The notes beneath the pieces are model-generated. The model worked only from the letters and a program-made list of their open reading frames with translations, was not told where the DNA came from and searched no databases. From Candidatus Melainabacteria bacterium (lineage in GTDB: Bacteria > Cyanobacteriota > Vampirovibrionia > 2-02-FULL-35-15), in contig JACQBQ010000021.1 of the NCBI GenBank assembly GCA_016201905.1, positions 1-55,529 of the forward strand: a stretch of DNA of 55,529 nt, read 5' to 3'. The translations under genes were made by a program, and so were the position numbers. Each line of letters starts with the position of its first letter. Position 1 is the first letter of the stretch. Positions 11,802 to 50,759 of this stretch are shown here, one piece after another.

Positions 11802-13148
11802 CTAATTATCTTCTTCTTCAACTAAATCTTTCCATTCAGGACTTTTTTCTAATTCTGAAGCAATATTTGAAATTTCAGTTATAGGCTTTACCTTCTTTGG
11901 CTTTAAAATACCAGAAGACTTTATTTCTTCTTTATGTAGTTCTTCTTCATCGTCCTCAAATTCATAATCTAATTCATCTAATTCCTCAGTTTCTTCCCTT
12001 GTTCTTTCTGAAAGGTTTTCTGTAAAAAGTTTTTTTCTTTTTGATAGAGCAGCAGTTGATTCATCTGGTACTTCTGGTTCTTCTTTTTTATTTTCTTTTT
12101 GTGAAGTGCTTTGTATTGGTGTTGGATCTTTGATTACTTCTGTGTCATTCTCTTTATGAGAATCACTAAATGGAAACGTTCCTTCTTCTTCAAGCAAGTC
12201 AATTAATGATTTTTCACTTAATAATTCTTCTTTTAAAATTTCTTCGTCAGGAGTTAATATATCTTTTTTAAGTTCTTGTGTAACTTGGAGTTCATAGTCC
12301 TGAATTATGGCATCTTTTTCCTGTTCAATTGGTGATAAAAGTTCTTCATCTGATTCTTCTTGAATTAAAACAGCATTTTCATGTTCAGCTGGTAATATAA
12401 CTTCTGTTATTTGTTCAGGAATTTCAATTTGTGGTTCTTTAACCTCAAGATGTGAGACTAAACTTACCAATGCATTTAACTGTGTGGAAAATCTTGCGTC
12501 TAGCTGTCCTGACCTTGTTTCAATTAAACAACTACCAGGATCTACTGAATCATTTGCTAGTGGAACTATATCTATACCGCTTGGAAATAATTTCTCCATT
12601 TCAGGAATATTCTGTTCAAGTGTTTTTAAGTCTGCCGGGTTTACAAATACCTGGACACGATCTGCTTCAGATGTTGCTTTTTTAATTGAATCTACAATCT
12701 GTGTTTTTAATATATTTGGATCAATTGCTGCCTGATATTTGATTATCTTACCAGCAAGGTCCAGTGCAACTTTTATAATTTCTTTGTGAGCTTGATTCAG
12801 GGCTTCTCGCTTTACTTCAAAGAGTTCTTTTAATAATAGCCTTGCCTGACTTTTCAAGTGATCAGCTTCTTCATTTGCTAATCGCAGTGTTTCATTATAA
12901 ACTTTTTCCTTAAGTTCTCTTGCTTCAACATTTGCTTTTTTTATTATCTCTTTTACTCTTACCTCAGCTTCATTCAGCTTTTTTTGGGACTCAGCTAAAA
13001 TATTTTCTGCTTCCTGTTTAATTGCCCTAGCCTCTTGCTTTGCTTTATGAATTTCAAGCTGCACAGCATGTGCAACTTCACTTACATCCAATGAGGTGGT
13101 CTTATGAGGGTTTTGTATCTTTGTAAGTTTTTTGCTTTTTATTAGCAT
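11802..13148 (-). CDS. fliH: Flagellar assembly protein FliH with acidic C-terminal extension
   Basis: FliH binds and regulates the export ATPase FliI. Residues about 25-240 have the FliH/V-ATPase E-subunit pattern: a long Ala/Glu/Lys-rich coiled coil (HKAKQEARAIKQEAENILAE) then a C-terminal domain with VQVFVNPADL, GIDIVPLANDSVDPGSCLIET and a FSTQL helix. After that come about 200 extra residues, mostly acidic and low complexity (DELDYEFEDDEEELHKEE). FliI is not in the window. The gene lies 4 bp after the small gene in the fliG slot, in the flagellar operon. Confidence 0.8.
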   Translation of the reverse strand: MLIKSKKLTKIQNPHKTTSLDVSEVAHAVQLEIHKAKQEARAIKQEAENILAESQKKLNEAEVRVKEIIKKANVEARELKEKVYNETLRLANEEADHLKSQARLLLKELFEVKREALNQAHKEIIKVALDLAGKIIKYQAAIDPNILKTQIVDSIKKATSEADRVQVFVNPADLKTLEQNIPEMEKLFPSGIDIVPLANDSVDPGSCLIETRSGQLDARFSTQLNALVSLVSHLEVKEPQIEIPEQITEVILPAEHENAVLIQEESDEELLSPIEQEKDAIIQDYELQVTQELKKDILTPDEEILKEELLSEKSLIDLLEEEGTFPFSDSHKENDTEVIKDPTPIQSTSQKENKKEEPEVPDESTAALSKRKKLFTENLSERTREETEELDELDYEFEDDEEELHKEEIKSSGILKPKKVKPITEISNIASELEKSPEWKDLVEEEDN

Positions 13149-13152
13149 TGTA

Positions 13153-13548
13153 CTATTTCATTTTCTCCATATCGGTTAAGAATTTATCAACAATCTTTGT
13201 AACTTCCTGAGACAAAAATACTGGTGGACCCTTTTTTTGTATTCCTAACTTAATTAAGATATATTCCTTGAGTTTTGCTCTTTGTTCATCAGCAATTCTG
13301 GATACTTTTTGTGATTTAATTTCTCTTTTACAATCATTCAGTATTTTTTGAAGCTCAGGCCAAGATTGATAAAACGGTGTCCAGTCAAGCTTTTCAACAT
13401 CAACTTTTGTTTCTTGCTCAATCTGGGCTAGTACTTTAGCAACTTCAGGACTAAAATGCGCCATAAGCAAAGATTGCTGATCCCTTGGCATTGTACGCAG
13501 TATCAAGGAAAGCGTTAATAATTTTATGTCTTTAGATAGTGTTGCCAT
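13153..13548 (-). CDS. Small protein in the fliG position (FliG N-domain-like?)
   Basis: A 131-residue protein between fliF and fliH, where fliG normally sits. Its first 40 residues (LLTLSLILRTMPRDQQ..LLMAHFSPEVAKVLAQIE) follow the helix pattern of the FliG N-terminal domain that binds FliF, but the middle and C-terminal torque-generating domains of a normal FliG (about 330 residues) are absent. It may be a reduced FliG, an adaptor that holds a full FliG encoded elsewhere, or an unrelated protein. The frame is clean, so it is not an obvious truncation. Confidence 0.5.
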   Translation of the reverse strand: MATLSKDIKLLTLSLILRTMPRDQQSLLMAHFSPEVAKVLAQIEQETKVDVEKLDWTPFYQSWPELQKILNDCKREIKSQKVSRIADEQRAKLKEYILIKLGIQKKGPPVFLSQEVTKIVDKFLTDMEKMK

Positions 13549-13706
13549 TTATAATCTTATGCCACATAGCAGAGAATCAAAAATCAGAGAATTAGTGTAT
13601 CAATAAGAAATAACCTGATTTAAATGGTTATCCCTAAGTAAATTGTACTGAAGTTTTATATAAATATTATCTTCTGATTAATATGAATGAGACTTTTGAG
13701 TCCTAA

Positions 13707-15302
13707 TTAAACTCTTCCTGCGGGAGTACCTTCTTCCAACCAGATCTGTAATTTGCTTGCTAAGAATTCAGGTTTTTCAACAGCTGCTTCTTTCAGGCCA
13801 GTTAAAATGCCAGTAAAATCAGGTTGTGCTTGTGTAATTCCAGGAACCTGTTCCTGTGCTTGTGCTGAGAGCTGTTGTTCAGGTCTTTGAAATTGTTTTT
13901 GCATCGACTGATTAATCTGTGAAACAGTACTTGGTTCTTGTACAGCTGGTCTCCTAAAAGAACCAAGGATTATTAGCAAGCCAATAACTGCAATTGTTAT
14001 ACCTGCCCAGCGTGGCAGTTTCTTAAAATAATCAGTTGTCTGGCTGAGAAAATTCCCTATATTAAATATTGGTGTTTTTGGCACACCAGCTTTTGGTTTG
14101 TTCGTAGCAAACTCTGCAACTGTAATTTTTATATCATCAGCAGTAGTGTTTGGACTTGTTATTGCAGCAATGCCCTCGCGTAATTGTCTAGTGGAAATCC
14201 TTGGCAAGAGTTCACTGTTTAAAGCTACTGCTACAGAAATTTTTGTAATTCTTCCTGGAGGCATAGTAACTGTTTTTTGTTTATAGCTTGGATATTTTTG
14301 AGTTACTCTGTTTGTTCTTGTATATCCTTTACCACCATCAACACCTGGCAATGCAGGTCCTACCGCTTGATCAGCACCACCATTAGCACCTAATCTTTCA
14401 TCACCAACTTGCTCTTGACCTATAACACCATCTGCAAAAGTCGTCGCACTTTCTTGTATTTTATTTCTGCTTATGTCTGAACTGACTCTTACTATGTAGT
14501 TACTTGCGCCAAGCAATGGTTGCAGATATTCTTCAATCCTTTTCTGAACCATTTTATTTACTCTCTCGGACTCTTCCAATAATTCACTGGCTGCAATTTC
14601 TTCAGTCTCAACCGTAGAGTATGTTTCTCCATTTGTATCAATTATAGAAATATTGTTTTTCTGTAGATTTGGAACATATCCGACAAGAAGATTAATTATG
14701 CTTCTCACTTGTGATCTATTAAGTTTACCTGCTTCATCGGGTAATTCTACCTGTACTGTCGCTGTTGTTGCTGCCTGAAACTGGCTAAATAACTGGGGTT
14801 CAGGAATATTTACACGAACTGTTGACCACTTAATTCCTGTCATTCTACTGATTATTCGTGAGAGATCTCCATTTACTGCTCTCATCATTTTTATTCTTTT
14901 ATCATAGTCTGAAGCAGCCCAGTCACTTTTATCAAATAAATTAAAACCATCTTCCTGCAAAAGATCACTCCTTGAAAGTGCAATAGCTGCTTTATCAAAA
15001 TCCTTCTGATAAACTTTTACATTTACTTTACCGGGTAAGTCACTATCTGACATTTTAGCTTCTAGATCATTTGCTTTTAATTTTGAAATGACTTCAAAGG
15101 CCCTGCCTTGATCAATTCTTTTTACAAGATCAATTTCATTTCCTTTACTGGCTCCTCGTGTCCAAGCAAACGCTACGATTAGAAGTGTAATAATGAGAGT
15201 TATAACACCAGCTCCAATTAAGACTAATCTTTTGTTTTGACCAAGATTAGTAAGCGTTTCTTGTACATCTGGTGTTCTTAATTGTGTTTGTTCTGTTGCC
15301 AT
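13707..15302 (-). CDS. fliF: Flagellar MS-ring protein FliF
   Basis: FliF builds the membrane MS ring. The 531-residue product has the two expected membrane segments: residues about 28-48 (LVLIGAGVITLIITLLIV) and about 427-445 (WAGITIAVIGLLIILGSF). The ring-building motifs between them include GFNLFDKSDWAASDYDKRI, TGIKWSTVRVNIPEPQLF and VRSIINLLVGYVPNL. The C-terminal tail ends with a short segment (LQIWLEEGTPAGRV) like the FliG-binding end of other FliF proteins, so a FliG partner is expected. It lies 71 bp after fliE. Confidence 0.92.
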   Translation of the reverse strand: MATEQTQLRTPDVQETLTNLGQNKRLVLIGAGVITLIITLLIVAFAWTRGASKGNEIDLVKRIDQGRAFEVISKLKANDLEAKMSDSDLPGKVNVKVYQKDFDKAAIALSRSDLLQEDGFNLFDKSDWAASDYDKRIKMMRAVNGDLSRIISRMTGIKWSTVRVNIPEPQLFSQFQAATTATVQVELPDEAGKLNRSQVRSIINLLVGYVPNLQKNNISIIDTNGETYSTVETEEIAASELLEESERVNKMVQKRIEEYLQPLLGASNYIVRVSSDISRNKIQESATTFADGVIGQEQVGDERLGANGGADQAVGPALPGVDGGKGYTRTNRVTQKYPSYKQKTVTMPPGRITKISVAVALNSELLPRISTRQLREGIAAITSPNTTADDIKITVAEFATNKPKAGVPKTPIFNIGNFLSQTTDYFKKLPRWAGITIAVIGLLIILGSFRRPAVQEPSTVSQINQSMQKQFQRPEQQLSAQAQEQVPGITQAQPDFTGILTGLKEAAVEKPEFLASKLQIWLEEGTPAGRV

Positions 15303-15373
15303 TGTTTCTTAAACTACTTCCCCTTATCTTTTTTCATACCCCTGGTTTATTAACTACTAACCAACCCTTAAAG

Positions 15374-15691
15374 TTAAACCTGCATTTGGGTTAGTTTTTC
15401 TACAGTACTAATAAACTTTCCTGCTACCTGAGTTGTCAAACCTAAAGCAATTTCTTCTTCAGCCATTGCAATCATTACCTCATGCAGGTTAACCTTTCCA
15501 GTAGTAACAGCTGCTTCAGTTAATTGTTCTGACTTATTCATCATTTTATTTACTTTACCAAGCATTTCAGATAAAACATTGCCAAATGTGCCACCACCAC
15601 CAAGATTTACTTGCCCCTTTAGTACAGGTATTTGTGGAATGCTTGGTAATGTTGGCATTAGATTTTTAAATTGCATTGGTGATTCTTTCAT
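15374..15691 (-). CDS. fliE: Flagellar hook-basal body complex protein FliE
   Basis: FliE joins the MS ring to the rod. The 105-residue length and C-terminal half (VNLHEVMIAMAEEEIALGLTTQV...KFISTVEKLTQMQV) are typical of the family. The N-terminal third is Gly/Pro-rich (LPSIPQIPVLKGQVNLGGGG) and unlike other FliE. It has a clear AAGGAG ribosome-binding site. Its place between the lytic transglycosylase and fliF supports the call. Confidence 0.85.
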   Translation of the reverse strand: MKESPMQFKNLMPTLPSIPQIPVLKGQVNLGGGGTFGNVLSEMLGKVNKMMNKSEQLTEAAVTTGKVNLHEVMIAMAEEEIALGLTTQVAGKFISTVEKLTQMQV

Positions 15692-15733
15692 TTTATTCTC
15701 CTTGATTTTCTCCTTGTTTTTGGCCCATTGTAA

Positions 15734-16276
15734 TTATGTAAGTTTACTCATGATTTCGCTCACATAATTTCTTGTTTCTTTAAACGGTGGTACTCCTTTA
15801 AACTTATCTACATTTCCTGGTCCTGCATTGTAGGCTGACAGTGCTAAAGCTACATTGCCTTGGTAACGATTAAGTAAAGAACTTAAATATTTAGTGCCTG
15901 CCCTTATGTTTTCAAGCGGATTTAATGGATCTTTAACGCCTAGTTGTTGTGCTGTCCCTGGCATAAGCTGCATTAGTCCTAATGCCCCGGATTGTGAAAT
16001 TGCACTTGGATTAAAATTTGATTCTCGTTCTATAATAGCATTTACAAGTTTTGGATCTACTCCATTTTCTTTTGCAATCTGATTAATTGACCATTGTAAT
16101 TTTTGTTTAATTACAATGGTTGAAAGGCTATTTAAAATATTCGAGAAAACTTCCTTAGTCTTTGACTGAACTGAGTTTTCAAAACCATCAAAAGATTTTT
16201 TCAACTTAGAGATTTCTTCTACTCTCCCTAGAGCTGATTTATATCCTGACTGATTTATAAAATCTAAACTATTCAC
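15734..16276 (-). CDS. Lytic transglycosylase (SLT domain), flagellar
   Basis: A 180-residue protein whose last 125 residues are a soluble lytic transglycosylase domain: the catalytic Glu in AIIERESNFNP, then SGALGLMQLMPGTAQQLG and the AYNAGPGNV motif. No signal peptide is visible. Lying between flgC and fliE, it probably opens peptidoglycan for the growing rod, the job FlgJ does in other bacteria, and it may be exported by the flagellar secretion apparatus. Confidence 0.85.
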   Translation of the reverse strand: MNSLDFINQSGYKSALGRVEEISKLKKSFDGFENSVQSKTKEVFSNILNSLSTIVIKQKLQWSINQIAKENGVDPKLVNAIIERESNFNPSAISQSGALGLMQLMPGTAQQLGVKDPLNPLENIRAGTKYLSSLLNRYQGNVALALSAYNAGPGNVDKFKGVPPFKETRNYVSEIMSKLT

Positions 16277-16285
16277 TCCCTAGAG

Positions 16286-16750
16286 TTATCCTCCCTGTTT
16301 CCCAATATTTAAAGTTTCCCTAGCTGCAGCTTTTGCCATTTCAACTATTGACAGGTTTGCTTTATAACCTCTGGTTGCATACATCATTTCAAGCATTTCA
16401 ACCAGCGAGTCAACATTTGACATTTCTACATCACCATTTGCATCTGCTTTTGGATGTCCTGGCATATGAACTTTTTGACCTGGTGTTTGATCAACTAAAA
16501 CCTGACTCACTTCAACACCTTTGCTGATCTGATTTCCATTTATAAAACTAAGCAGATCATCTTCTTTAATACCAAGCTGTCTTGCCATTATGATGGCAAA
16601 AGCACTTCCAGTTTTCTGTGAAAAAACCGGTATTTTTCTTTTGTAGTTTGGAGTTGAAGCATTTGCAACATTTTCAGAGATGATTTCCATTCTTTCTCTT
16701 TGAGCTTCAAGACCATTTGATGCTGTATTTAATAAATCAAAAAATGTCAT
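16286..16750 (-). CDS. flgC: Flagellar rod protein FlgC
   Basis: A proximal rod component of 154 residues. The N-terminal rod motif (DLLNTASNGLEAQRERMEIISENVANASTPNYKR) has the family's ANxxTxxYKR-like signature, and the C-terminal helix (VDSLVEMLEMMYATRGYKANLSIVEMAKAAARETLNIG) is the expected coiled coil. It follows flgB by 11 bp. Confidence 0.92.
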   Translation of the reverse strand: MTFFDLLNTASNGLEAQRERMEIISENVANASTPNYKRKIPVFSQKTGSAFAIIMARQLGIKEDDLLSFINGNQISKGVEVSQVLVDQTPGQKVHMPGHPKADANGDVEMSNVDSLVEMLEMMYATRGYKANLSIVEMAKAAARETLNIGKQGG

Positions 16751-16761
16751 TCTTTTCTCCT

Positions 16762-17121
16762 TTAATTAGCTCTGACTTCTAAAGCCTTTTTCATATGATC
16801 AAAGTGATGATTGATAGACTTAACCAAAAGCAGGTAACGTAAATGATTATCATAAAGCTTTGACAATTCAGATTCCAATGTCATTGGCTTTGAGTAATCT
16901 CTGTATCTGCTTCGGGCTAATATTGATTCATTTCCTTCACCTGATGCAGCTGAATCATTTTTCAGATCACTTAAAACCCTGCTAAAATCAACATCCTGCC
17001 TTACATAGCCTTTAGTTTCAATATTTGCTAAGTTGCTAGAAAGGATTTCCTGACGTTGCATTACTGCATCTGTCAGGCCCCTTACTGTTTTAAATCCTTC
17101 ATTCTCAAACATATTTTTCAC
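16762..17121 (-). CDS. flgB: Flagellar rod protein FlgB
   Basis: A proximal rod component of 119 residues. It has the QEILSSNLANIETKGYVRQDVDF motif of FlgB at residues about 22-45 and a C-terminal helix (DNHLRYLLLVKSINHHFDHM). It is the first gene of the flgB-flgC-SLT-fliE-fliF run. About 210 bp separate it from the Gly-rich gene upstream, leaving room for its own promoter. Confidence 0.9.
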   Translation of the reverse strand: MKNMFENEGFKTVRGLTDAVMQRQEILSSNLANIETKGYVRQDVDFSRVLSDLKNDSAASGEGNESILARSRYRDYSKPMTLESELSKLYDNHLRYLLLVKSINHHFDHMKKALEVRAN

Positions 17122-17330
17122 CTTTTATTCTTCACCAAAAATATTTTCATTTATAATTTATATCGGTGAGTAAGTTGTATTGTTTATAATTTTGGTTAAG
17201 GATTCGTTGTGATTTGGGACTTTATACAAAAAAAATCTATAAAGCTAGAAATAACCCGAGAAAAATCTGTCTCAAAACAATATTAGTTTAAGATCCAATT
17301 AAAACCAAATCCTAAATATTGAATTCTTAT

Positions 17331-18167
17331 TTAGTAATAATTATTCAGATTATTGGTTAAATTTGAATTGCCATCTTCACTCTCAGCAAAACCAGCACCT
17401 TCATATGAATCGCTTGGTTCGTCAAAGTTGCCTTCTTGATATGCCTTATTTAAATAATCCTGAAAGCCATTGTAGCTAGTTTCAGTCTCATTTATATTTA
17501 CCGGTCGTACTCCAGCTAACGATTTTCTTAGACCAAAGAATGCTTTAACAACACCAAAAAGGCTAATGATAGGAACCAGTAAAAACTGCAACATGCCACC
17601 GCCACTTTGCTGAGAACCGGTTTGTGCAAATCCATTCTGTGCAAATGAAGGACTACCAAGGCCTCCTCCTCCTAGGAATCCAGCCTGCCCGGCAAATCCT
17701 TGAAACGCTGGATTTGGTGGCTGTGCTGGCACCTGTAGAGTTGAATTAATTAAAACTGCGCCAGGAGCTAAAGCCTGATTTCTTGTAGTAGTTGATATGG
17801 AATGATTATTTCTTGCATTCAGAAATGCCTGTACAGCCATTGGTGTAACACTACCATAGCCACCTGCTTGCGGATAACCACCATAACCTTGCTGTGCTAT
17901 GCCTTGTGGAAAACCACCATAACCTTGTTGTACTAGGCCTTGTGGAAAGCCACCATAACCTTGCTGTGCCACGCCTTGTGGAAAACCACCTCCGCCTAGT
18001 GAGGGCATTCCACCAGCACCACCATATGGTGAAACTGACTTTAGTACATTATTAAAAATATTTCCAAAAGTTGCCCCGGCAGGAACGTTTATTCCATAAC
18101 CAGCAGGATTAGTATATGCTGTTGTTGTTACTGAACTTTTTATGATTCCTAATAATTCTTTTAGCAT
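17331..18167 (-). CDS. Gly/Gln-rich repeat protein within the flagellar cluster
   Basis: A 278-residue protein not recognised as a known flagellar component. Residues about 50-105 carry four tandem copies of a GGFPQG-x-x-QQGYGG unit (nucleotide repeats at 17870-17990). There is no signal peptide. A hydrophobic segment near residues 195-215 (GGMLQFLLVPIISLFGVVKAFFGL) could enter a membrane. The N-terminal half resembles disordered, sticky low-complexity proteins. Its place between flgG and flgB suggests an assembly or structural role specific to this lineage. Confidence 0.65.
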   Translation of the reverse strand: MLKELLGIIKSSVTTTAYTNPAGYGINVPAGATFGNIFNNVLKSVSPYGGAGGMPSLGGGGFPQGVAQQGYGGFPQGLVQQGYGGFPQGIAQQGYGGYPQAGGYGSVTPMAVQAFLNARNNHSISTTTRNQALAPGAVLINSTLQVPAQPPNPAFQGFAGQAGFLGGGGLGSPSFAQNGFAQTGSQQSGGGMLQFLLVPIISLFGVVKAFFGLRKSLAGVRPVNINETETSYNGFQDYLNKAYQEGNFDEPSDSYEGAGFAESEDGNSNLTNNLNNYY

Positions 18168-18219
18168 TTTATCTCCTTTTAATTATTACTTTATCCTCAT
18201 TCCTTTATTTCACCAGTCA

Positions 18220-19029
18220 TTAGACAGATTTTGAAATTGTGTAGTGAACATTTTCATAAATCTTGTCAATTGTTTTCAAAAGCCTAATTTGAGCTGAAAG
18301 CAGATTTTTGATTTGAGTTATGTTTATAAATTCTGCAGCAATGTCAACATTTCCAAACTCTACATATCCTTGTTTTACATTTGTAGCAGAATCTGGGCCA
18401 ACATCTGTCTCAAGAGCAGAACCAGATGCATCTGTCGGTAAATAAAAACCTCTGCCAATTGCTTCTAGTCCCTGTGGATTGTTAAATGCAACAACATTTA
18501 TTTTTCCAATCTTTGTTTTTTCTCCTGTTACTGTATTAATACCGTTCACTGTTCCATCTTCCTGGACTTCAGGCACAAGTTCAGTTGGAATAGTAAGCTT
18601 AGCTGTATTAACTTTAATATTTAAACCAAGTTCATTGTTCTTAGAATTATTACTTTCAATAACAGGTTTAGCTGGCTCAACTTCAGGAATAACACGATAT
18701 CCTTCATCAGTTACTAATTCACCTTCACCTGTTAATTTAAAACGACCTACCCTAGAGTAAGCTCTTTGTCCATTTGGTAGTTCTACTTCAAAAAACCCTG
18801 GACCATCCAAAGCCATATCAAATAACCCTCCAGTTTTTCTGAGCGGTCCTTGAGAGAAATCTCTGGTTTCATATTTGGCAATTTCACCATTTAATGTTTC
18901 AACAAAACTTGATTTGCCTTTTTTATAACCAATCGAATTTATGTTTGAGATATTTTCAATGGCATTGGATAATAAAGCAAAACTGTTTTGAGTTGCTTTA
19001 GATACTTGATATCCCATTTTTCCATACAT
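18220..19029 (-). CDS. flgG: Flagellar rod protein of the FlgG/FlgF type (FlgG-like)
   Basis: A 269-residue rod/hook-family protein. The N-terminal motif (ENISNINSIGYKKGKSSF), the LDGPGFFEVELPNGQRAYSRVGRFKL segment and the C-terminal VKQGYVEFGNVDIAAEFINI region match distal rod FlgG. It is adjacent to a second, shorter paralogue (19046-19684). The flgG name is the better guess for this longer one, but the two are hard to tell apart from sequence alone. Confidence 0.75.
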   Translation of the reverse strand: MYGKMGYQVSKATQNSFALLSNAIENISNINSIGYKKGKSSFVETLNGEIAKYETRDFSQGPLRKTGGLFDMALDGPGFFEVELPNGQRAYSRVGRFKLTGEGELVTDEGYRVIPEVEPAKPVIESNNSKNNELGLNIKVNTAKLTIPTELVPEVQEDGTVNGINTVTGEKTKIGKINVVAFNNPQGLEAIGRGFYLPTDASGSALETDVGPDSATNVKQGYVEFGNVDIAAEFINITQIKNLLSAQIRLLKTIDKIYENVHYTISKSV

Positions 19030-19045
19030 GATATGATTTCTCCTT

Positions 19046-19684
19046 TTATACGTTTCTGCCGTACTTCTCTATTAAATCCCTATCGACTGAAGCTTCCATG
19101 CCAAGCAATTTTTCACTAGCTTCAAAAGAACGAAAAGCCATTGCCAGTGAAACCATTTCATTTTCAATGCTTACATTTGATCCTTCAACAAATCCTTGAT
19201 GAACTTTTACAGGTTTATTGTCAAGGATTTGCATTGCAATTCTGCCGTATCGTTCAGTACCTACATGAATTTCTCCATTTTGATCTATACGGATGTCAAA
19301 ATCCTTAGCTAGGCTAATATCCTTGTCTGTTTTTTCAATAACTACAACTTCATGTCCATCCTGTGTAGATAGTTCCCCTTTTTCATTTAAGCGGAACTTG
19401 CCATTTCTAGTGGGGATAATACCATCTTTAGTATCAATGAGAAAATATGCATTTCCTTCAATTGCAAGATCAAATTTGTCACCTGTTTTTTTAAGTTCAC
19501 CTTGTGAAGCATCTCGCATAGCTGCTTCATTCAAAACCGATCTAAAACTTAAAGACTCCGGGATTTGTCTTTGATAACCAATGCTACTAGCATTGGAGAT
19601 ATTGCCTGCAATGATCTGAATCATTTTTAATTTATGAAGCATTCCTTGTATTGTTGGGCCAAAGCTGTTTGGTTGATTACTCAT
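19046..19684 (-). CDS. flgF: Flagellar rod protein of the FlgF type
   Basis: A 212-residue paralogue of the neighbouring FlgG-like protein. It has a GNISNASSIGYQRQ rod motif, IEGNAYFLIDTKDGIIPTRNGKF, and KVHQGFVEGSNVSIENEMV near the end. It is shorter than most FlgF and looks like a minimal rod protein. It is the first clear flagellar gene of the operon, 16 bp before flgG. Confidence 0.72.
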   Translation of the reverse strand: MSNQPNSFGPTIQGMLHKLKMIQIIAGNISNASSIGYQRQIPESLSFRSVLNEAAMRDASQGELKKTGDKFDLAIEGNAYFLIDTKDGIIPTRNGKFRLNEKGELSTQDGHEVVVIEKTDKDISLAKDFDIRIDQNGEIHVGTERYGRIAMQILDNKPVKVHQGFVEGSNVSIENEMVSLAMAFRSFEASEKLLGMEASVDRDLIEKYGRNV

Positions 19685-37173: not shown

Positions 37174-39321
37174 TTAACTGCCTCCCCTGTGATCTCTAAC
37201 CTCTTGTAGATTTTGTGCTTTTTGCATTGCTTTTTGTGAAAAGTCAATCTGGGTATGTAATCCGTGATTAAAGCACTTCAAGGTACTGGCACTTTTATTA
37301 TCTTCTTCTAAAATAACTTTCAAAAGATCAACATAAGACCTTACAGCTCCTTTATCTTTAAGCTCATTGTTTTGAAAATGCTCTAAAATCAAATCTGCCT
37401 TTTTACTTAAGTATTCATTCCTTCTGAAATAAAAAGTTTTACTTCTAGGATACAAATCCCTTATAGCAAGAATTGTTTGTGCAGCAGCTTCATGCTTTGT
37501 ACAATTCTCATCCAATAAATTTTTAAACTCAGTATCTAAGAGTGGCGTTAAGTGTTTCTTAGTAGAATTAGCAATCTTTTCATAAAGCTCTTGATTAAGA
37601 AAATTAGAGGGTTCAAAGTTAGATCCAAATCTATTCACAAGCTCTGGAATATTTTCAATATTTGCTTTAGAAATTGTTTCAGCAAGTTTTCTAAGCATTA
37701 AATCATGCCCTACTTCAAGACAATCAAAACGGTTAAATAGGACTGTTAACATTTGAGCTCTAAGATAAGCTGAAATATGTAATGATCTTTGCTTTTCAGT
37801 AGCATCATCAGATGGTGGGTTAGCTAATATTTGCTGAATTATTTTTTCATAGGGTTGGATTAGTGACCCAGTATGTGCATCTCTATCATTTACTATAGCT
37901 TCATTTTTTATAAACTCTTCAAGTGAATTAGAAAATAAAGGGAAATTGTCCTCAAGATTTTTATTTGTTAATTTAATCAAATCATTATATAATCTGGGCT
38001 CTTTTACACCACTATCTTTTCTATGCTCTAATGTTGCTATTTTTGCAATTGTCTGTACTAAAGAAGCCTTAGTATAAAAAGGTGGTGTAGAAGTAAACTC
38101 TTTATCAATTCTTTCTAGTATTTTTTCTATTTGTGGATACCACTTCTTACTAAATAAACTAGGTGGTGCAGAACTTATTATTTCGGATCTTAACAAATAA
38201 TTTCCTAAAATCAATGAATTCCAATAAGCACTTTGCTCACTAGTTTTTTCACGCTTATTTTCTTTGTCTGAAAGTGCCTGCAGATATGCTCCGATTAATT
38301 CTTGATATTCATTCTTTGCACCTTCAAGAGTACTTTTTAATAGCCAAGACGTAGAAGAAATTGACTGCAAAAAATTATATAGGCCAGCTTCTTTACCTCT
38401 CAAGTCAGGATCATTATTTTTCAGTGCCGTAGAAGTCTCTGTAAAAATTTTTCCTACAATTTCAGCTCTTACTTTTTCAGGACATGCTACTAATATTTCA
38501 TTTATATTTACACCTTGTTGCCCTATAAACTTAGCTCTAGGCAAATTTTTATATACCTTTGGTTCTTTAATTCCACTATCTTTCCTGCTTTCTAATATAG
38601 CTAATCGTATAACTGAATTTAAAGAAGACGTTATTGTAGTCCCACCTGCAGTAAATTCATTATCAGTTCGTTCTAGTATTTTTTCTATTTGCGGATACCA
38701 TTTTTTGTTAAACAAACCAGGTGGTGCAGAGTCTAATACATTAGGTTTTAATAAGTTGCGTTCTAAAATCCATGAATTCCAGCTAGCACTTTCCTCACTG
38801 GTTTGTTCACGTTTATTTCCTTTGTCTGAAAGTGCCTGCAGATATGCTCCGATTAATTCTTGATATTCATTTTTTGTATTTGCAAGAACATTTTTTAATA
38901 AAGGCTCTTTCATAGAAAGAGCTTGAACAAAACCATTAGCTTTATTTTCTATATCTTTTAAATCCGCAACATTATCTTTTAATGCTTTAGTTGCTTGACT
39001 AAAAGCTCTCTTTGCAATTTGAACTTTTATTTCTTGAGGCAGACCATGCAATGTTTTTATTTGTAATTCATATTGAGGAGTATTCCATTCCGTTAAATCT
39101 TTAAATATGTCTATGAACTGGTCTATTAAATTGTCAGATAAAGGTATTTTCTTCTCTACTAACTTTGGAACATCTAAAGGACCTAATTGCACTTGTTTAG
39201 GTAGATTTGGCAGTTCTACTTTTTTTTGATCATCTGCACTAGCAGATTTAATAATTGAAGCTAATCCTAGAGCTACAGTGCCTACTGCACCTAAATGTGA
39301 AGAGACTTTAAATATTTTCAT
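37174..39321 (-). CDS. Exported large protein with 186-residue tandem duplication
   Basis: A 715-residue protein with an N-terminal signal-like segment (SSHLGAVGTVALGLASIIKSASADD). Two copies of a roughly 186-residue helical unit lie side by side. Each has NEYQELIGAYLQALSDK, a TSE-S--WNS-IL stretch, SAPP-LF-KKWYPQIEKILER and HRKDSG/SRKDSG. A stretch of about 51 bp is identical in both units (38263-38313 and 38821-38871, offset 558 bp), so the duplication is recent. No family recognised. Confidence 0.6.
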   Translation of the reverse strand: MKIFKVSSHLGAVGTVALGLASIIKSASADDQKKVELPNLPKQVQLGPLDVPKLVEKKIPLSDNLIDQFIDIFKDLTEWNTPQYELQIKTLHGLPQEIKVQIAKRAFSQATKALKDNVADLKDIENKANGFVQALSMKEPLLKNVLANTKNEYQELIGAYLQALSDKGNKREQTSEESASWNSWILERNLLKPNVLDSAPPGLFNKKWYPQIEKILERTDNEFTAGGTTITSSLNSVIRLAILESRKDSGIKEPKVYKNLPRAKFIGQQGVNINEILVACPEKVRAEIVGKIFTETSTALKNNDPDLRGKEAGLYNFLQSISSTSWLLKSTLEGAKNEYQELIGAYLQALSDKENKREKTSEQSAYWNSLILGNYLLRSEIISSAPPSLFSKKWYPQIEKILERIDKEFTSTPPFYTKASLVQTIAKIATLEHRKDSGVKEPRLYNDLIKLTNKNLEDNFPLFSNSLEEFIKNEAIVNDRDAHTGSLIQPYEKIIQQILANPPSDDATEKQRSLHISAYLRAQMLTVLFNRFDCLEVGHDLMLRKLAETISKANIENIPELVNRFGSNFEPSNFLNQELYEKIANSTKKHLTPLLDTEFKNLLDENCTKHEAAAQTILAIRDLYPRSKTFYFRRNEYLSKKADLILEHFQNNELKDKGAVRSYVDLLKVILEEDNKSASTLKCFNHGLHTQIDFSQKAMQKAQNLQEVRDHRGGS

Positions 39322-41295: not shown

Positions 41296-41955
41296 CTAAG
41301 ACCGAAAGAGCTTATCAAGGTATTTAATTAACTTATCTTTTAATATTTTTTTTAGTGCTTTCTGATGCAATATTTCTCCTGAAGATTTTACCTGGACTTT
41401 TTTATTATTCGTACTAGGCTTTGGCAGGTTATTAACAATAATTGGGGGTAATAGTTTTACTTCTTCAATGATTACATCTTTTGCATCGACTACTCCATCA
41501 TGATTTAAATCTAACTGTCTCATTTGTTCATCAGTTAACTTAACATCACCATTTATAGCCATTTCTAAAAAGATCACATCGTGCCAGTCTACTCTGCCAT
41601 CTTCATTGAGATCACCATCTAGCTTTCTTTTTTTTGGTTTTGATATATCATTGTCATTTTCTCTGTAGCGAATATATTCTTTTGCTAATTGGCAAACTGT
41701 CTTTAGATGAGCAATGGCTGCCCTGATTTCTCCACTATCTTTAGTATCAGGAATACTGTACTGAATACTTGGCAAGCTAAAATTAATATCTTCGCCTCGA
41801 CTTGCAATTAGCTCAGCTAATATGCTCTCTACTTGTTTTATTTTACTTTTAATCGCTGCTTTTAAGTCACTTGAGTTACTTACTGAGGAGTTTTTATTGT
41901 TTTCTATATTACCCATGAGTTTTAAGCCTAGTAAAAATGTTCTATTCTTTTGCAA
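41296..41955 (-). CDS. Dockerin type I-like protein
   Basis: A 219-residue protein. Residues about 115-170 hold two dockerin/EF-hand-like calcium loops, DLNEDGRVDWHDVI and DLNHDGVVDAKDVI, separated by a helix, the paired layout of type I dockerins. The N-terminal half is coiled and polar. No cohesin or carbohydrate-active domain is visible here. ATG at 41916 (MGNIENN) is an alternative start. A calcium-dependent docking role is inference from the motif. Confidence 0.7.
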   Translation of the reverse strand: MQKNRTFLLGLKLMGNIENNKNSSVSNSSDLKAAIKSKIKQVESILAELIASRGEDINFSLPSIQYSIPDTKDSGEIRAAIAHLKTVCQLAKEYIRYRENDNDISKPKKRKLDGDLNEDGRVDWHDVIFLEMAINGDVKLTDEQMRQLDLNHDGVVDAKDVIIEEVKLLPPIIVNNLPKPSTNNKKVQVKSSGEILHQKALKKILKDKLIKYLDKLFRS

Positions 41956-42098: not shown

Positions 42099-44672
42099 TC
42101 ATCTTTTTATAATTCTATCTCTAAGCAACTGTGCAAAGCGTGTTGGGTCTCCATTAAACTCATCAACTGATGTCATCATAAAAAGAATATCCTCTGAATC
42201 TATGACATAGTTTGGATTATGAGCAAGCCCTATTGCAAACAGTGAGTCAGGATTATTTCTGGCAAACTCTTTATCTTCCTGTGTAACTTTCCAACTTCTA
42301 TGCCACGTTACACGCTGTGCAAAAACAGAATCAGGATGATTATAAGCAGTTAATCTATCATTTTCTTCTACAAGAAGATCTTCTCTATTTAAAAGAGCTA
42401 TTAAAGTGTAATAATGGTAGTAGTAATTTTTTTGATAATTCTCTTCAGTTAAACCTATACTTTCAGGACAAAACAGATAAGGATTGTTTCGCATAAAGTT
42501 TTTGTCTTCTTGAGTAATTTTATAGCTCTTATTTTCTTCAAATAAATATCTTGCAAAATCTGAATGAGGATTTTCTTTTCTTACTTTAAGATCTCCAGGC
42601 TCTACTATGTAATTAGGATTAGAAAGTGCATACTGTGCAAGCCGCCAGGAATCTAAGTTTTCCCATATGGCTTTTTTATCTTCTGCTTCTATTCCATAGT
42701 CAGGTCTTTTAAGAAGATAAACAAATTCAGAGTAAGGCTCTCTTCTAAGTATTTCTTTATCTTCTTTTTCAATTACATAATTTGGGTTTTGCATTAATCC
42801 TCTTGTAAACATTGAACGAGGATTTTTTCTGGCTATTTCTATATCTTTAGGTTCAATGACATACCTGGAGTTACTTAAGATATCATTCATCCAATTCATA
42901 TCAATATTTTTTCTTAGATATTCTTTCTCGTTTTTATTTATTGGATAACCTAAAACAGCAAATCTATAGCTTATAATTGAAACCATTGAATTAAATGATT
43001 GAGATTTTTTTCCTGCATGATCATAGCCTTCTATATCCTCAGGTTGTAGCTCATAATTAGGATTCATATATAATCCATGAGAAAACCATGAATCTGGATT
43101 TTTTCTGGCTATTTTTATATCTTCTTCCTCTATTTTGTAGTCTTTTCTTCTTAATAGTGCTCCTGCAAAGTAAGTGTTAAAATTTTCTCTGGCTATTTTT
43201 ATATCTTCTTTTTGAATTTTATAGTTTAGATTTGCTACCAAAAATGGGGTGTACACTTTATTGTTAATAAGCTGTCTTGCAAGCTCTATATCAGAAGCAT
43301 TTGGTATAAAATCTTTTCTACTTAAAAGAGCTTTTGTAAACTCAGTATCCGTATTTGCCCTTGCAGCTTGTCTATCTTCTTCTTCTATTTTATAATCTTT
43401 TTTGCTAACTATATATTTTGCAAGCTCACCCGAAAGTTTTGAATATGGTTCTTTTCTAAGCAGTGTTTTCAACTCATTGTCTAAATTAACTTTTAAATTG
43501 CCCAGATTAGGATTACCTAATAATGCTCTAACAAGCATTGAATCAGGGCTTTTGACAGAATGCATAAGATCAGAAGCACTTATAATATAATCCGATCTGC
43601 TTGCAGTTACTCCTGCAAATATACTATCTGGATTTGTTTTTGCTATATCTAAATCTTGTGGTTGTAATTTGTGGTTTAGGTTTTTACCTATAAAATAAGC
43701 TAAATAAGAGTTTGGGCTTTTAGCTACTGAATCTATATCTTTTTTTTCTACTACATAATCTTTCTTTTTAAGCAAAATCTCAGTAAGTGGATTTTCAGTA
43801 TTATTTCTAACAAAGTTTTTATCACCAGCTTCAATGGTGTAATCATCTCTTAAAAAAAGATATTTTGTAAATAGTGTTCCAGGATTTCCCCATGCAAACT
43901 CTCTATCACTTTTCAATATTTTATAGCCTGGGCTTGACAATAAGCGTAACGTAACCAAACTATCTGGGTGTTTTCGAGCAATTTCATTATCTGCTTCTTC
44001 TAGCTTATATGTCGGATTTGAAATTAAAATCTCTGCTAGTCTTTTTTCTGGATTTTCTCTAACAAACTTTTTATCATTACTATCTATTACATAATCTTCT
44101 CTTGTAATTAATGCAAATGCAAAACTACTTTCAGGGTTTTTAAGAGCTATTTCTTTGTCAATCTTTTCTACTTTATAATCTTTCTTTTCGACTAGAGCAC
44201 TAGCAAAAGTTGAATCAGGATTATTTCTTGCTATTTCTATATCTTGTTTTTGAATTGGAAGTGTGGAATTGCTTATTACAAGCCTTGCAAAATAAGTATC
44301 TGGGTTTTTTCTTGCTACATCTATATCTTCTTTTTTAATCTCATAATCTTCTCTGGTTATTAGAGCTATTGCATAGCTGGTTTCTGGATTTTCCCTTATA
44401 AACTTAATATCTGCTTGTGTAATTTTAAATTTAGGATGGTAAATAAGGTCATTGACAAAGTGCGAGTCTGGATCATCTCTTAAATATTCTCTAAGTAAAA
44501 TTGGATCGTTTAATAATTTATCTAAATTAAACTCAAAGTTTTGAAAATTAAAAGGGGCAGGCTTTGTTATATTTTGAGCTGGTTTATTTTTATCAGTATT
44601 ATTCAACCCTCCAGCAAATGGTAATAAAGCTGTTCCCATAAGTGTTGTACGAAGTATGTTTAATATTTTCAT
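42099..44672 (-). CDS. Exported protein made of about 26 copies of a ~30-aa repeat
   Basis: An 857-residue protein with a signal-like start (MKILNILRTTLMGTALLPFAG). From residue about 60 to the end it is built from roughly 26 imperfect units of 29-34 residues with the core D-I-x-x-A-R-x-N-P-D-S-x-F-A and then x-x-L-x-x-x-x-D-Y-x-I-E. One unit (about residues 560-590) is degenerate. Each unit looks like a helix pair, so a solenoid is likely. It is not recognised as TPR, Sel1, LRR or another named family. Confidence 0.65.
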   Translation of the reverse strand: MKILNILRTTLMGTALLPFAGGLNNTDKNKPAQNITKPAPFNFQNFEFNLDKLLNDPILLREYLRDDPDSHFVNDLIYHPKFKITQADIKFIRENPETSYAIALITREDYEIKKEDIDVARKNPDTYFARLVISNSTLPIQKQDIEIARNNPDSTFASALVEKKDYKVEKIDKEIALKNPESSFAFALITREDYVIDSNDKKFVRENPEKRLAEILISNPTYKLEEADNEIARKHPDSLVTLRLLSSPGYKILKSDREFAWGNPGTLFTKYLFLRDDYTIEAGDKNFVRNNTENPLTEILLKKKDYVVEKKDIDSVAKSPNSYLAYFIGKNLNHKLQPQDLDIAKTNPDSIFAGVTASRSDYIISASDLMHSVKSPDSMLVRALLGNPNLGNLKVNLDNELKTLLRKEPYSKLSGELAKYIVSKKDYKIEEEDRQAARANTDTEFTKALLSRKDFIPNASDIELARQLINNKVYTPFLVANLNYKIQKEDIKIARENFNTYFAGALLRRKDYKIEEEDIKIARKNPDSWFSHGLYMNPNYELQPEDIEGYDHAGKKSQSFNSMVSIISYRFAVLGYPINKNEKEYLRKNIDMNWMNDILSNSRYVIEPKDIEIARKNPRSMFTRGLMQNPNYVIEKEDKEILRREPYSEFVYLLKRPDYGIEAEDKKAIWENLDSWRLAQYALSNPNYIVEPGDLKVRKENPHSDFARYLFEENKSYKITQEDKNFMRNNPYLFCPESIGLTEENYQKNYYYHYYTLIALLNREDLLVEENDRLTAYNHPDSVFAQRVTWHRSWKVTQEDKEFARNNPDSLFAIGLAHNPNYVIDSEDILFMMTSVDEFNGDPTRFAQLLRDRIIKR

Positions 44673-44952: not shown

Positions 44953-46756
44953 ATGCATGTTACATTAGTTGCTAGGGATGGCTTTCCTAGACAGGAAATT
45001 CAAGGAGTAATAAAGCTTGCTGAGTCAAAAAAATCTAAAATTGCATCAAAGTCTCTTCCAACAAAATACAATCTATTCACAGAAATACTCTCGCCTACAT
45101 CTGAAAAACCAATAGCTCGTCAAACTTTTGCCGAGTTTAAAAAATGTTGTTCGGGGTTATGGGCTATTGCATATCAGGCTTTCAAAAATCCTTCCGGGGC
45201 TAGAAAGGCACTTTATTTACTTTTAGGAGGAGAGCATAATTTGCAGGAGTGGTTAGTTAAAAATACTCCTGTAAAAACACCGATATATAAACGAGGTCCA
45301 AGAGGTACTGTATGTTTAATTCCCTATGAACAATTTGATCCAAGAAGTAATAACTGTTTTGCAAAGGGAGATTCTTCCCACGGTATGAAATTAAAACATA
45401 ATGCTGTTCCTATTACAGTTGAACATAATGGAAAAATAGGAGAGCTATATTGGGTTACAGACAAAAACAACAAACGTTATGAGATCTTTCATCGTTTATT
45501 TGGAAGTCATGGACCTCTTGGTGCCATAGACCATAATAAACATCAGAAAGCCATGTCTATGATTGATGCTAAAAGTTATTTTCTTAGTGATGCCGTTAGA
45601 AATAAAAGAAAAGAAATTTCAGAAATCATCGGGGGAAATGCAGGCAGAATAGAAGCTTTAATAGGATCAGGAGCTGAAGTTAATCTTAAAGAAGAATGGA
45701 AAAGATCAATTTCAGAAACATTGTTCAGGTGTTTAATTGGAAATGTTTCTGAGGAACGTCAGGAAGATATTATTCGTAACGCTGAAATAGCACTGAACTA
45801 TTTAATAAGAACTAAGGCAATAAGTCCTATTCCAAAAATAACAATTTTCAGCAATGCAAATCAAGAAGGTGAAAGAGCACTTAAAGAACTCGATATTATG
45901 GGACTTGAAATATGTAGCGAACGTCTCAGAGAACTTGAGAACAGAAATCCTGAAACCCTTATTGATTGGCTTACACTTTCAGTAGTAAACACAATAAGAG
46001 AAGAATCACAAAACAAAGACCCTGAAGAGGTTGTACTAGATGCATCTAAAACATTTCTTGAGATGATGGGAGCCGGAGTTTTTACACGAACAGCCTCAAG
46101 AAGCAATTTCGATTATTTGGCTCTTACTGATAATGATTTTCGGCAAAGGCTAGTTAGAGCATTGGACCAATTTAATTCTCCAGATCTCAATGGAATAATA
46201 CAAGGAGCACTTAACAATGAAAAATTATTGGAGCCTTTTTATGCTGCTGCATGTGCTGCATTAGCATATAATCCAACTGTACTTTTTGCTTCTAAGGAAT
46301 TCAAAGATTGTGTTTCGGGAATTACTAGATGACAATAAAACTATTGAACTAAGTGATACCGAACTGAGACAATTAATTGAAAAATATTGCTTTGAACACC
46401 CTCTGTTAAGCATAAGACAGAACCAAGAAGTTTTTTACCCGCTGGCTGGTTACTGCAGGAAAGGTCTTGAAGAAAATGGTTTTATAAAAGAAGATGGAAA
46501 TCTTAACAGTGAAGCTGTATTTGATCCTAAAAATTTTGACAAGATAACTGCAATAGGTAAATGGCAGTTTGCTACTGGTGTAAGAGGTTGCATAGGTGAA
46601 ACATTTGCCCTTGAAGCCCTTACTTGGGATACGTTGTGTATGGCATACCTGCTTAAAAAGTTTCCAGAGATGAAAATTGTCGGAAAAACCAAGACAAATT
46701 TCGGCATCTTTATGGGTAGAGAATTCAAGGTAAAAGATTTAACAGCTAAAAACTAA
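44953..46756 (+). pseudogene. Cytochrome P450-like gene split by a frameshift
   Basis: Two reading frames make one P450-like protein. The first (44953-46332, 459 aa) has a helix-I-like GAGVFTRT. The second (open from 46286 to 46756) has the heme Cys loop FATGVRGCIGETFALEAL, matching F-x-x-G-x-R-x-C-x-G. Dropping one T from the T5 run at 46283-46287 joins the frames as NPTVLLLLRNSKIVFRELL, as in P450s after the K helix. The ExxR of the K helix is not intact (reads AALAYNP). The frameshift may be real or a sequence error. The first 100 residues are unassigned. Confidence 0.65.
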
Positions 46757-48785: not shown

Positions 48786-50759
48786 TTATCTAATTATACC
48801 TCCAGGATTATCTATAAACCCCTGTACGAGTTGATAAATATTTTCCCGGTCAACGTTCTGTAGATGCTTATCATAAAGGGCTTGTGCTTCTTCCCCTTTT
48901 AGTTCCCCTTTAAGTCCAAGATATTCTTTAACCAAATCTTCAAGTTTATCCTTTGGTACCTGCTTTATGATTTGTCTGCTAGTTAATAATGCTCTATCAA
49001 GAATTTGATTCATAAACTCACTATCTTTATCTGAAAGTTCTACCTGTGGATCAGTGTAATCAGAGGAAATGTGCCCTTCAAACATTGCGCTACTTAACAG
49101 TAAGCGTATAATGTCTCTTGCTTCTTTGTAATCTCCTTTAGCTCCGGTAGTTTCACTATTTCGTGGTAGAAGCTCTAGTTCTGCAGCTCTTCCACCCATA
49201 AGAATAAGAAGACTTTCAAGAAGTTCAGCTTTTGCAGGTAAAATCTTACTGTATAATCCACCTGAGATCATTACATGTCCTAATGATCTTCCTCGCGGAA
49301 TATTAGATATGGTTTCTATGTTCCTTTTACAGGCTAAAGCAAGTATTCCATGTCCAGCTGGTTCATGCCTGGCAATTACTTTTAAGTCTCTATCTTTTAC
49401 CTGTGCCCCGCTTTCCATTCCTATGCTTATCTCTGTAATTGCTGACTTAAAGTTTTCTTTTGTTATCAGGGACTGATTATTTTCAAATGCAATAATAGCT
49501 GCCTGTTTAATCAGGTTTTCAAGCTGTGCACCGCTAAATCCTTCGGTGTTATCAGCAAGCCATTTAATATCTACATCTTCTGCAAGTAAACCTTTTTCTT
49601 GTTTTCTACTTAAGTACTTATCTAAGACATCTTCTCTTTGACTTGATGAAATAAGAGGAGGGATTTCAATTATCATATCAAAACGCCCAGGTCTTGTAAG
49701 AGCATCATCCAGTGTGTCAGGTCGGTTTGTAGCTGCCATAACAGTGATGCGATCGTTCGGTTTAAAACCATCCATTCGGTTCAGTAACTGATTTATAGCT
49801 TGAGTATATTCCCTACTAGAGTCAGTAGAACCACTGGCACTATTTGAGCGCTTACCTCCTATAGCATCTATTTCATCAATGAAAATTATGCAATGACCTT
49901 CCTTTTTAGCTACCTTGTCAGCTTCATCAAATAAGTTGTCTATCTGGACAGCTCCCAGACCGGCAAACATTTTTATAAACTTTGAAGCACTGACCGGTAT
50001 AAAAGGAACGCCGGATTCTCCTGCAACAGCTCTTGCTAATAAGGTTTTTCCAATTCCTGGCCCTCCTATAAGAAGTATCCCCTTTGGTAATTGTGCTTCC
50101 ACCTTGTTTTCATCAGCATCTTTAATATATTTAACAATCTTCTCAAGCCTTTTTATAATATTTGGGTATCCTCTAACATCTTTAAATCTGGTATCAGATT
50201 TTACTGGCTTGAAACCATCTTTTCCACCACTCGATAAATGTTTAAAATATCTATATAAGATCAAGATTAATATAACGGCAACTAATGAAGGAGCTACCGG
50301 TGTTACTCTATCCATGATTGCCGTGATTCTACTTTTTTCACCTTTAGTAATAAGTACTGGTTCAGGGCTAAGTGTTCGTAATCCCTGTTCTAGTTTTTCT
50401 ACTTCTTTTGTATCAGTTGGCATAGTAAGATATACACTGCTTTTGTTTTTTAAAATAAATTCATAATATGCTGTAGTGGTTTGCCTTTCATCAGTACTTA
50501 TCCATAACTGTGCTTTGGTGATTTTTCCTAGCTTTGCTTTTGCTAAAACTTGATCAACTGTACTTAGAAATAAACCATCTTTATCGGGGATGTCATCTTT
50601 TATAACTTCATTATTTACTTGTGTTTGAGGAGCAGTTTGAATTTCTGCATTGTCCTTTTTGTTGCAGCCTTGAAGAGTTGTTAGTCCAAGAAGTGATGCT
50701 GCAATTAGATTTCTTGGGTAGGAAAGCAATCCGTGACTTGCTGGAGATAACTTAACCAT
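48786..50759 (-). CDS. FtsH-like AAA+ protein with altered zinc motif and lipobox
   Basis: A membrane AAA+ protein of 657 residues. It has FtsH order: N-terminal segment ending in a lipobox (LQGC, Cys32), periplasmic part, one membrane helix (residues about 155-172), AAA domain with Walker A GGPGIGKT (233-239), Walker B FIDEIDA and ALTRPGRFD, then the protease domain. The zinc site reads H465-E-P-A-G-H470, one residue longer than the HEAGH of active FtsH. The pore loop is FAG, not FVG. The rest of the domain and an Asp (ETTGAKGD) remain. It is probably an inactive or altered paralogue. Confidence 0.85.
   Translation of the reverse strand: MVKLSPASHGLLSYPRNLIAASLLGLTTLQGCNKKDNAEIQTAPQTQVNNEVIKDDIPDKDGLFLSTVDQVLAKAKLGKITKAQLWISTDERQTTTAYYEFILKNKSSVYLTMPTDTKEVEKLEQGLRTLSPEPVLITKGEKSRITAIMDRVTPVAPSLVAVILILILYRYFKHLSSGGKDGFKPVKSDTRFKDVRGYPNIIKRLEKIVKYIKDADENKVEAQLPKGILLIGGPGIGKTLLARAVAGESGVPFIPVSASKFIKMFAGLGAVQIDNLFDEADKVAKKEGHCIIFIDEIDAIGGKRSNSASGSTDSSREYTQAINQLLNRMDGFKPNDRITVMAATNRPDTLDDALTRPGRFDMIIEIPPLISSSQREDVLDKYLSRKQEKGLLAEDVDIKWLADNTEGFSGAQLENLIKQAAIIAFENNQSLITKENFKSAITEISIGMESGAQVKDRDLKVIARHEPAGHGILALACKRNIETISNIPRGRSLGHVMISGGLYSKILPAKAELLESLLILMGGRAAELELLPRNSETTGAKGDYKEARDIIRLLLSSAMFEGHISSDYTDPQVELSDKDSEFMNQILDRALLTSRQIIKQVPKDKLEDLVKEYLGLKGELKGEEAQALYDKHLQNVDRENIYQLVQGFIDNPGGIIR

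Follow-up and report, generated by a model that had tools for sequence, protein, structure and literature searches.

In the leucine-rich repeat variant (LRV) family, each repeat unit is made of two short helices, and alpha and 3-10 helices alternate. The units of PUF, ARM and HEAT proteins are at least 36 residues long and contain longer helices or three helices, as the PUF repeat does. The alpha-solenoids of Cyanobacteria are, according to PMC3837014, largely HEAT-PBS proteins. Here we describe a 28-residue tandem repeat which, judged from sequence, appears to constitute a new alpha-solenoid family with no match among the catalogued repeat families searched, and whose array in an 857-residue protein is predicted to form a two-helix alpha-solenoid in which about 27 stacked units build a long curved rod.

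The window, that is, the whole 55,529-nucleotide stretch analysed, comes from the 2.28 Mb genome of a Candidatus Melainabacteria bacterium, and positions 42099-44672 of its minus strand correspond to exactly one open reading frame of 857 amino acids (ATG at 44672; the stop codon ends at 42099); the original prediction had given no strand. Its repeat character is evident from periodicity, a unit matrix and a unit HMM. Specifically, the autocorrelation of the protein peaks at 28 residues (z 17.6 against 100 shuffles) and again at 56 (z 14.3), and the unit matrix recovers 24 units with scores of 20-48, as compared with a best score of 10.8 in 50 shuffled copies. An iterated unit HMM built on the 28-residue repeat family extends this to 27 units, which start at residues 52 to 820 and end at 847 (42132-44519, minus strand), with helix pairs throughout this array in the full-length model. 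The long, regular repeat of about 26 units that the original prediction had described is thus borne out. Two stretches are irregular. At residues 388-424 (43401-43511, minus strand) the 28-residue register slips, with a unit-matrix spacing of 65 instead of 56 and pLDDT values of 62-75; at residues 738-763 (42384-42461, minus strand) one unit carries a long insertion (spacing 49), and the full-length model shows pLDDT below 50 at residues 735-748 and a helix at 743-761.

Across 251 family units, the consensus reads P-N-Y-k-I-e-e-e-D-k-e-f-A-R-k-N-P-d-S-x-F-A-x-g-L-t-q-N, in which D9 is the most constant position (91%), followed by N16 (76%), A22 (73%), F21 (72%), A13 and R14 (70% each), Y3 (69%) and P17 (65%). 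Because of this consensus and these frequencies, the core D-x3-A-R-x-N-P-D-S reported originally is correct as a consensus; as a constant motif it fails, since it is complete in only 4 of the 27 units of the window protein. Individually, its residues are frequent in these units: D9 in 24 of 27, A13 in 13, R14 in 17 and N16 in 17, with P17 in 19, D18 in 13 and Ser or Thr at position 19 in 20.

AlphaFold2 modelling of six regular units (residues 108-275; 43848-44351, minus strand), with 22 six-unit blocks aligned gap-free as input, yields a confident two-helix solenoid (pLDDT 95.7, pTM 0.86), and the structure prediction that had been proposed for one to five units is hereby supplied for six. 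In this model, two short helices, A (positions 7-15) and B (positions 20-26/27), make up each unit and are joined by an N-P-[DN]-[ST] turn. The turn would end helix A and cap helix B, and an extended Y-x-I link would lead from helix B into the next unit. In the full-length model of the window protein, which rests on an alignment of two sequences (pLDDT 78.1, pTM 0.44), helix pairs begin near residue 57 and continue up to the C-terminus, and residues 1-48 are disordered with pLDDT below 50. Both predictions show the tandem helix-turn-helix units with a regular core that characterize an alpha-solenoid.

Sequence searches did not place the repeat in any described family. In Pfam, no model consistently accounts for it in the window protein and 11 relatives, and in these 12 members none of the TPR, Sel1, HEAT, ARM, ankyrin, PUF and LRR profiles matched (E limit 10 for 11 members and 0.01 for L066), in agreement with the earlier claim for TPR, Sel1, HEAT and LRR; one TPR_7 line belongs to the neighbouring gene at 37174-39321 and lies below the TPR_7 cut-off. 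Nothing in NCBIfam (eight family proteins), PHROGs (four) or PADLOC (four) explains the repeat, PDB sequence searches with the window protein and with the profile gave no relative, and nothing returned by our literature search describes it. Because none of these databases accounts for the repeat, the HMM and profile searches that the original prediction had set as its test ended with no confident placing in a known family. Additionally, Foldseek searches with the repeat model against the PDB and viral models gave no match at E 1e-3 or better. Together with the confident six-unit model, these results support the view that the solenoid looks new.

Several isolated matches were rejected. LpxD (Pfam E 0.0049) lies below its cut-off and covers a single stretch of the window protein (residues 154-188), which we ascribe to chance; so do we the GSH-S_N match in L043 (E 1.4e-6, above cut-off), as the scattered Pfam matches vary among proteins and fall on repeat units. 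DUF4116, considered as a further candidate, appears solely as one viral Foldseek row with probability 0.14. A phage, plasmid or viral origin found no match in viral contigs, plasmids or phages when queried with an L043-led alignment or an L043 block.

The repeat family is best read as lineage-specific and was found chiefly in one order, very probably the Caenarcaniphilales, non-photosynthetic relatives of cyanobacteria. It occurs at E 1e-3 or better in 9 of the 11 searched genomes of this order, G001 and G005 being without it. In a search of 386 genomes of the phylum at 1e-4, eight match, seven of which, the window genome included, belong to one taxonomic family, and the eighth (G192) to another family of the same class. 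When 84,980 species were scanned with one short pattern, a search which may omit the window genome's own records, 54 stretches emerged, of which eight were confirmed, all from Melainabacteria or Caenarcanales. The unit HMM at 1e-3 identified 21 open reading frames in the regions examined, to which L066 and L067 were added at 6e-7 or better. Among the relatives, L031:552-2981 is of the same length class as the window protein and 46% identical to it. The window genome also encodes a second, degenerate member of 594 amino acids that adjoins a gene which we take to be Mrp/ApbC. Such degenerate members (L066 5695-7479, minus strand; L067 7484-8779, plus strand; L046 9131-11269, plus strand) lie beside the presumed Mrp/ApbC gene in three genomes, those of the window, G002 and G006.

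We found no conserved partner gene for the family. In five genomes (G002, G003, G004, G008 and G009), repeat genes lie between a pabA-like gene and anmK, whereas in five others (G000, G001, G005, G006 and G007) the same operon lacks a repeat gene; anmK was not found in G010. The occupied sites (L041, L042, L044, L038 and L033) and the empty ones (L078-L082) form a clean pair of five genomes each. A role in cell-wall recycling was rejected, since this site is optional for repeat genes and the window gene is located elsewhere. The window gene adjoins a gene for a type I dockerin-like protein (41296-41955, minus strand), and the genome gave no further dockerin match. Among the regions examined, a dockerin-like gene lies near a repeat gene elsewhere only in G004 (L045); no repeat gene accompanies those of G001, G005, G008 and G002 in their stretches, and no cohesin was found, so that a cohesin-dockerin system was dismissed.

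Other genes of the window were recorded in passing. An FtsH-like AAA+/M41 protein with a lipoprotein-like N-terminus (48786-50759, minus strand) contains HEPAGH, which we take to be one residue longer than the usual zinc-binding HEAGH; from its sequence, it is perhaps an inactive protease. Two overlapping frames on the plus strand, 44953-46332 and 46286-46756, gave no Pfam match above cut-off; the second holds FATGVRGCIG, which presumably resembles the cytochrome P450 haem motif, and the two are possibly one P450-like gene broken by a frameshift. Flagellar genes occupy 11802-19684 (minus strand), among them a lytic transglycosylase-like frame and one with GGFPQG repeats, the flagellar and transglycosylase names being presumptive assignments from the translations.

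We then consider where these proteins reside. With an export cut of Kyte-Doolittle 1.6 over 11 residues, 14 of 21 family members carry a strongly hydrophobic N-terminus after positive charge, and 45 of 167 background frames pass the same hydropathy cut. The signal-like N-terminus claimed for the window protein (residues 1-24; 44601-44672, minus strand) does have positive charge followed by a hydrophobic stretch, but it is weak, its value of 1.51 falling, like that of L031, just under the cut. L046 contains RRAFLK, presumably a Tat-like motif. Four members (L032:8848-11262, L039, L043 and L034) may be cytoplasmic, as they have no hydrophobic N-terminus, and no anchor was found in the repeat proteins. 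The class is diderm as judged from gene content, according to PMC4040986. Taken together, export is likely for most family members, and we infer it for the window protein too; because most members carry an export signal, the rod would most likely be located in the periplasm or on the cell surface.

The arrays differ widely in the similarity of their units. The window array is heterogeneous, with a mean identity of 29% between units, and appears to be old. In L043, on the other hand, units are on average 76% identical; L038 contains an apparently doubled 11-unit block (64% identity at offset 11 vs 40% overall), and L032 and L039 show a two-unit rhythm. When the window protein is compared with L031:552-2981 unit by unit, the closest counterpart sits at the corresponding place for 10 of the 11 leading array units. 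Identity averages 52% between closest counterparts vs 29% over all pairs; for L041 and L044, 14 of 15 units agree in place. G009 encodes two tandem paralogues. The first is truncated by the end of the contig and shares 67% identity with the window protein along its last 179 residues; it would be a better candidate orthologue of the window gene than L031. The window-L031 pair may therefore be paralogous, which weakens the unit-by-unit argument; the argument still stands because L041, L044 and L042 occupy one genomic site.

Among the positions at which units differ but related proteins agree are 6, 23, 24, 26 and 27; two of those in helix B, 24 and 26, may serve in packing. Pooled unit-specific conservation is 0.46 at the exposed positions of helix B (20, 23 and 27) vs 0.18 at those of helix A (7, 11 and 15), exposure being taken from a hand-worked helical wheel without coordinates; as the two sets were chosen after viewing the per-position table, the comparison is a lead and not a clean test. 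Helix B exceeds helix A in each of three protein pairs computed separately, with a bootstrap 95% interval for the difference of 0.08 to 0.40 from two of the three pairs.

These observations suggest a working model in which about 27 units would stack as one long curved rod that, once exported, would act as a scaffold in the periplasm or on the surface of the diderm cell. The core residues recur in all units, whereas the outward helix-B residues vary among units and are retained at each place among relatives, a pattern to be expected if this face recognised a particular extended partner. On balance, we consider it rather more likely than not that the family is a lineage-specific, mostly exported alpha-solenoid scaffold with a helix-B binding face, binding through this face being suggested by the conservation pattern. 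The rod could instead serve as a spacer or coat of variable length, in which case it would be a stiff product of tandem duplication whose units matter for length alone. The HMM unit number, which ranges from 5 to 27 among the larger-scoring members, is consistent with that, as are the recent amplification seen in L043 and L038 and the Ser/Thr/Gly-rich stretches behind the hydrophobic N-termini of L038 and L033. This explanation nevertheless seems unlikely in view of the old, heterogeneous window array and its kept positional correspondence with L031, and a binding face is favoured over a plain spacer because unit-by-unit conservation is stronger at the exposed residues of helix B than at those of helix A. 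The binding surface outside the cell envisaged in the original prediction accordingly gains from the prevalence of export-like N-termini and from helix-B conservation, and loses from the weak signal of the window protein itself, the four members without one and the missing anchor.

An intracellular protein- or RNA-binding scaffold of PUF or ARM/HEAT type is a further alternative, in keeping with the four members that have no export-like N-terminus and with VIA, in which PUF chains rank first for the six-unit model (Puf4 4dzs_B, Z 9.5, rmsd 2.6 over 155) and ARM/HEAT and PUF solenoids, with one engineered protein, lead for the full-length model (best Z 11.4). We regard it as quite improbable, given that Z below about 13 is, by VIA's own note, common among helical repeats, that most members look exported and that the PUF unit, with its three helices, is longer. 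Still less do we expect the repeat to be a very divergent LRV member lengthened from 26 to 28 residues. LRV does supply the top Foldseek probability in the PDB (1lrv, 0.84; TM 0.57, rmsd 3.8 over 149 columns, E 1.3), the x-N-P-x-[TS] turn common to both is where the best profile alignment falls, and 2 of 100 LRV profiles with shuffled columns reach the real score. In VIA, however, 1lrv (Z 5.8, rmsd 3.4 over 146) is outscored by PUF chains, and hhalign gives LRV against the 28-residue repeat a probability of 0.2-1.3% in all nine block-size comparisons, whereas halves of each family compared with each other reach 99.8-100%. Moreover, Pfam LRV (PF01816) gives no entry up to E 10 for the window protein or any of 10 relatives, under HMMER filters that drop most matches above about 0.1, no LRV match occurs in G000, G002 and G003 of the order to which the window genome belongs, and the main spacing of cyanobacterial LRV is 26 (102 spacings in arrays of 12 loci). 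The lineage-specific exported scaffold remains our preferred reading.

Very large proteins of the class (L065 5379-10523; L119-L128) contain 29-residue repeats of the DNLDFARELVANKDFPREEI type, which match in 34 of 382 genomes and for which we found no convincing Pfam family. These giant proteins, presumably of Gastranaerophilales, have an F-A-x2-L-x2-N-x-[DN]-[FY] stretch in common with the 28-residue repeat, from which they differ in period and in an unlike second half. A four-unit 28-residue profile finds the 29-residue repeat at E 1.7e-9 in one genome, and hhalign with the L065 protein alone gives 66-84%. Kinship was set aside, as hhalign drops to 2-8% with a broad profile (10 more loci and L065) and the shuffled maximum of 16.8 exceeds the real score of 15.8; the 29-residue repeat is at most a marginal lead to a relative.

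New solenoid repeat families are uncommon. The present repeat is short, regular and confidently modelled, and its natural arrays span near-identical units at one extreme and highly diverged ones at the other; it is therefore a candidate design scaffold and a visible record of repeat-array growth. The order is known mainly from metagenomes (Candidatus Caenarcanum was named from sludge, according to PMC4040986), and exported binding scaffolds would offer a rare handle on the contact of its cells with their surroundings. With LRV (PF01816, 1lrv), the family has in common a bacterial origin, long tandem arrays and the x-N-P-x-[TS] turn ahead of the second helix; it differs in unit length (28 vs 26) and in core, which is Y3, I5, D9 and F21-A22 here and V-R, V-A, T-P and L-x2-L-A in LRV. 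With PUF, ARM and HEAT proteins it has in common the curved solenoid of stacked helices, as reflected in the Puf4 and ARM/HEAT matches above, whereas none of their Pfam models matches the repeat family. Tentatively, and with more doubt than we attach to the scaffold itself, the N-P-[DN]-[ST] turn and the near-invariant D9 might define a new alpha-solenoid class that originated within this order and radiated into exported modular binding rods. Through such rods the cells may touch prey, a host or their neighbours, and the positionally coded helix-B faces would play a role like that of ankyrin or PUF repeats.
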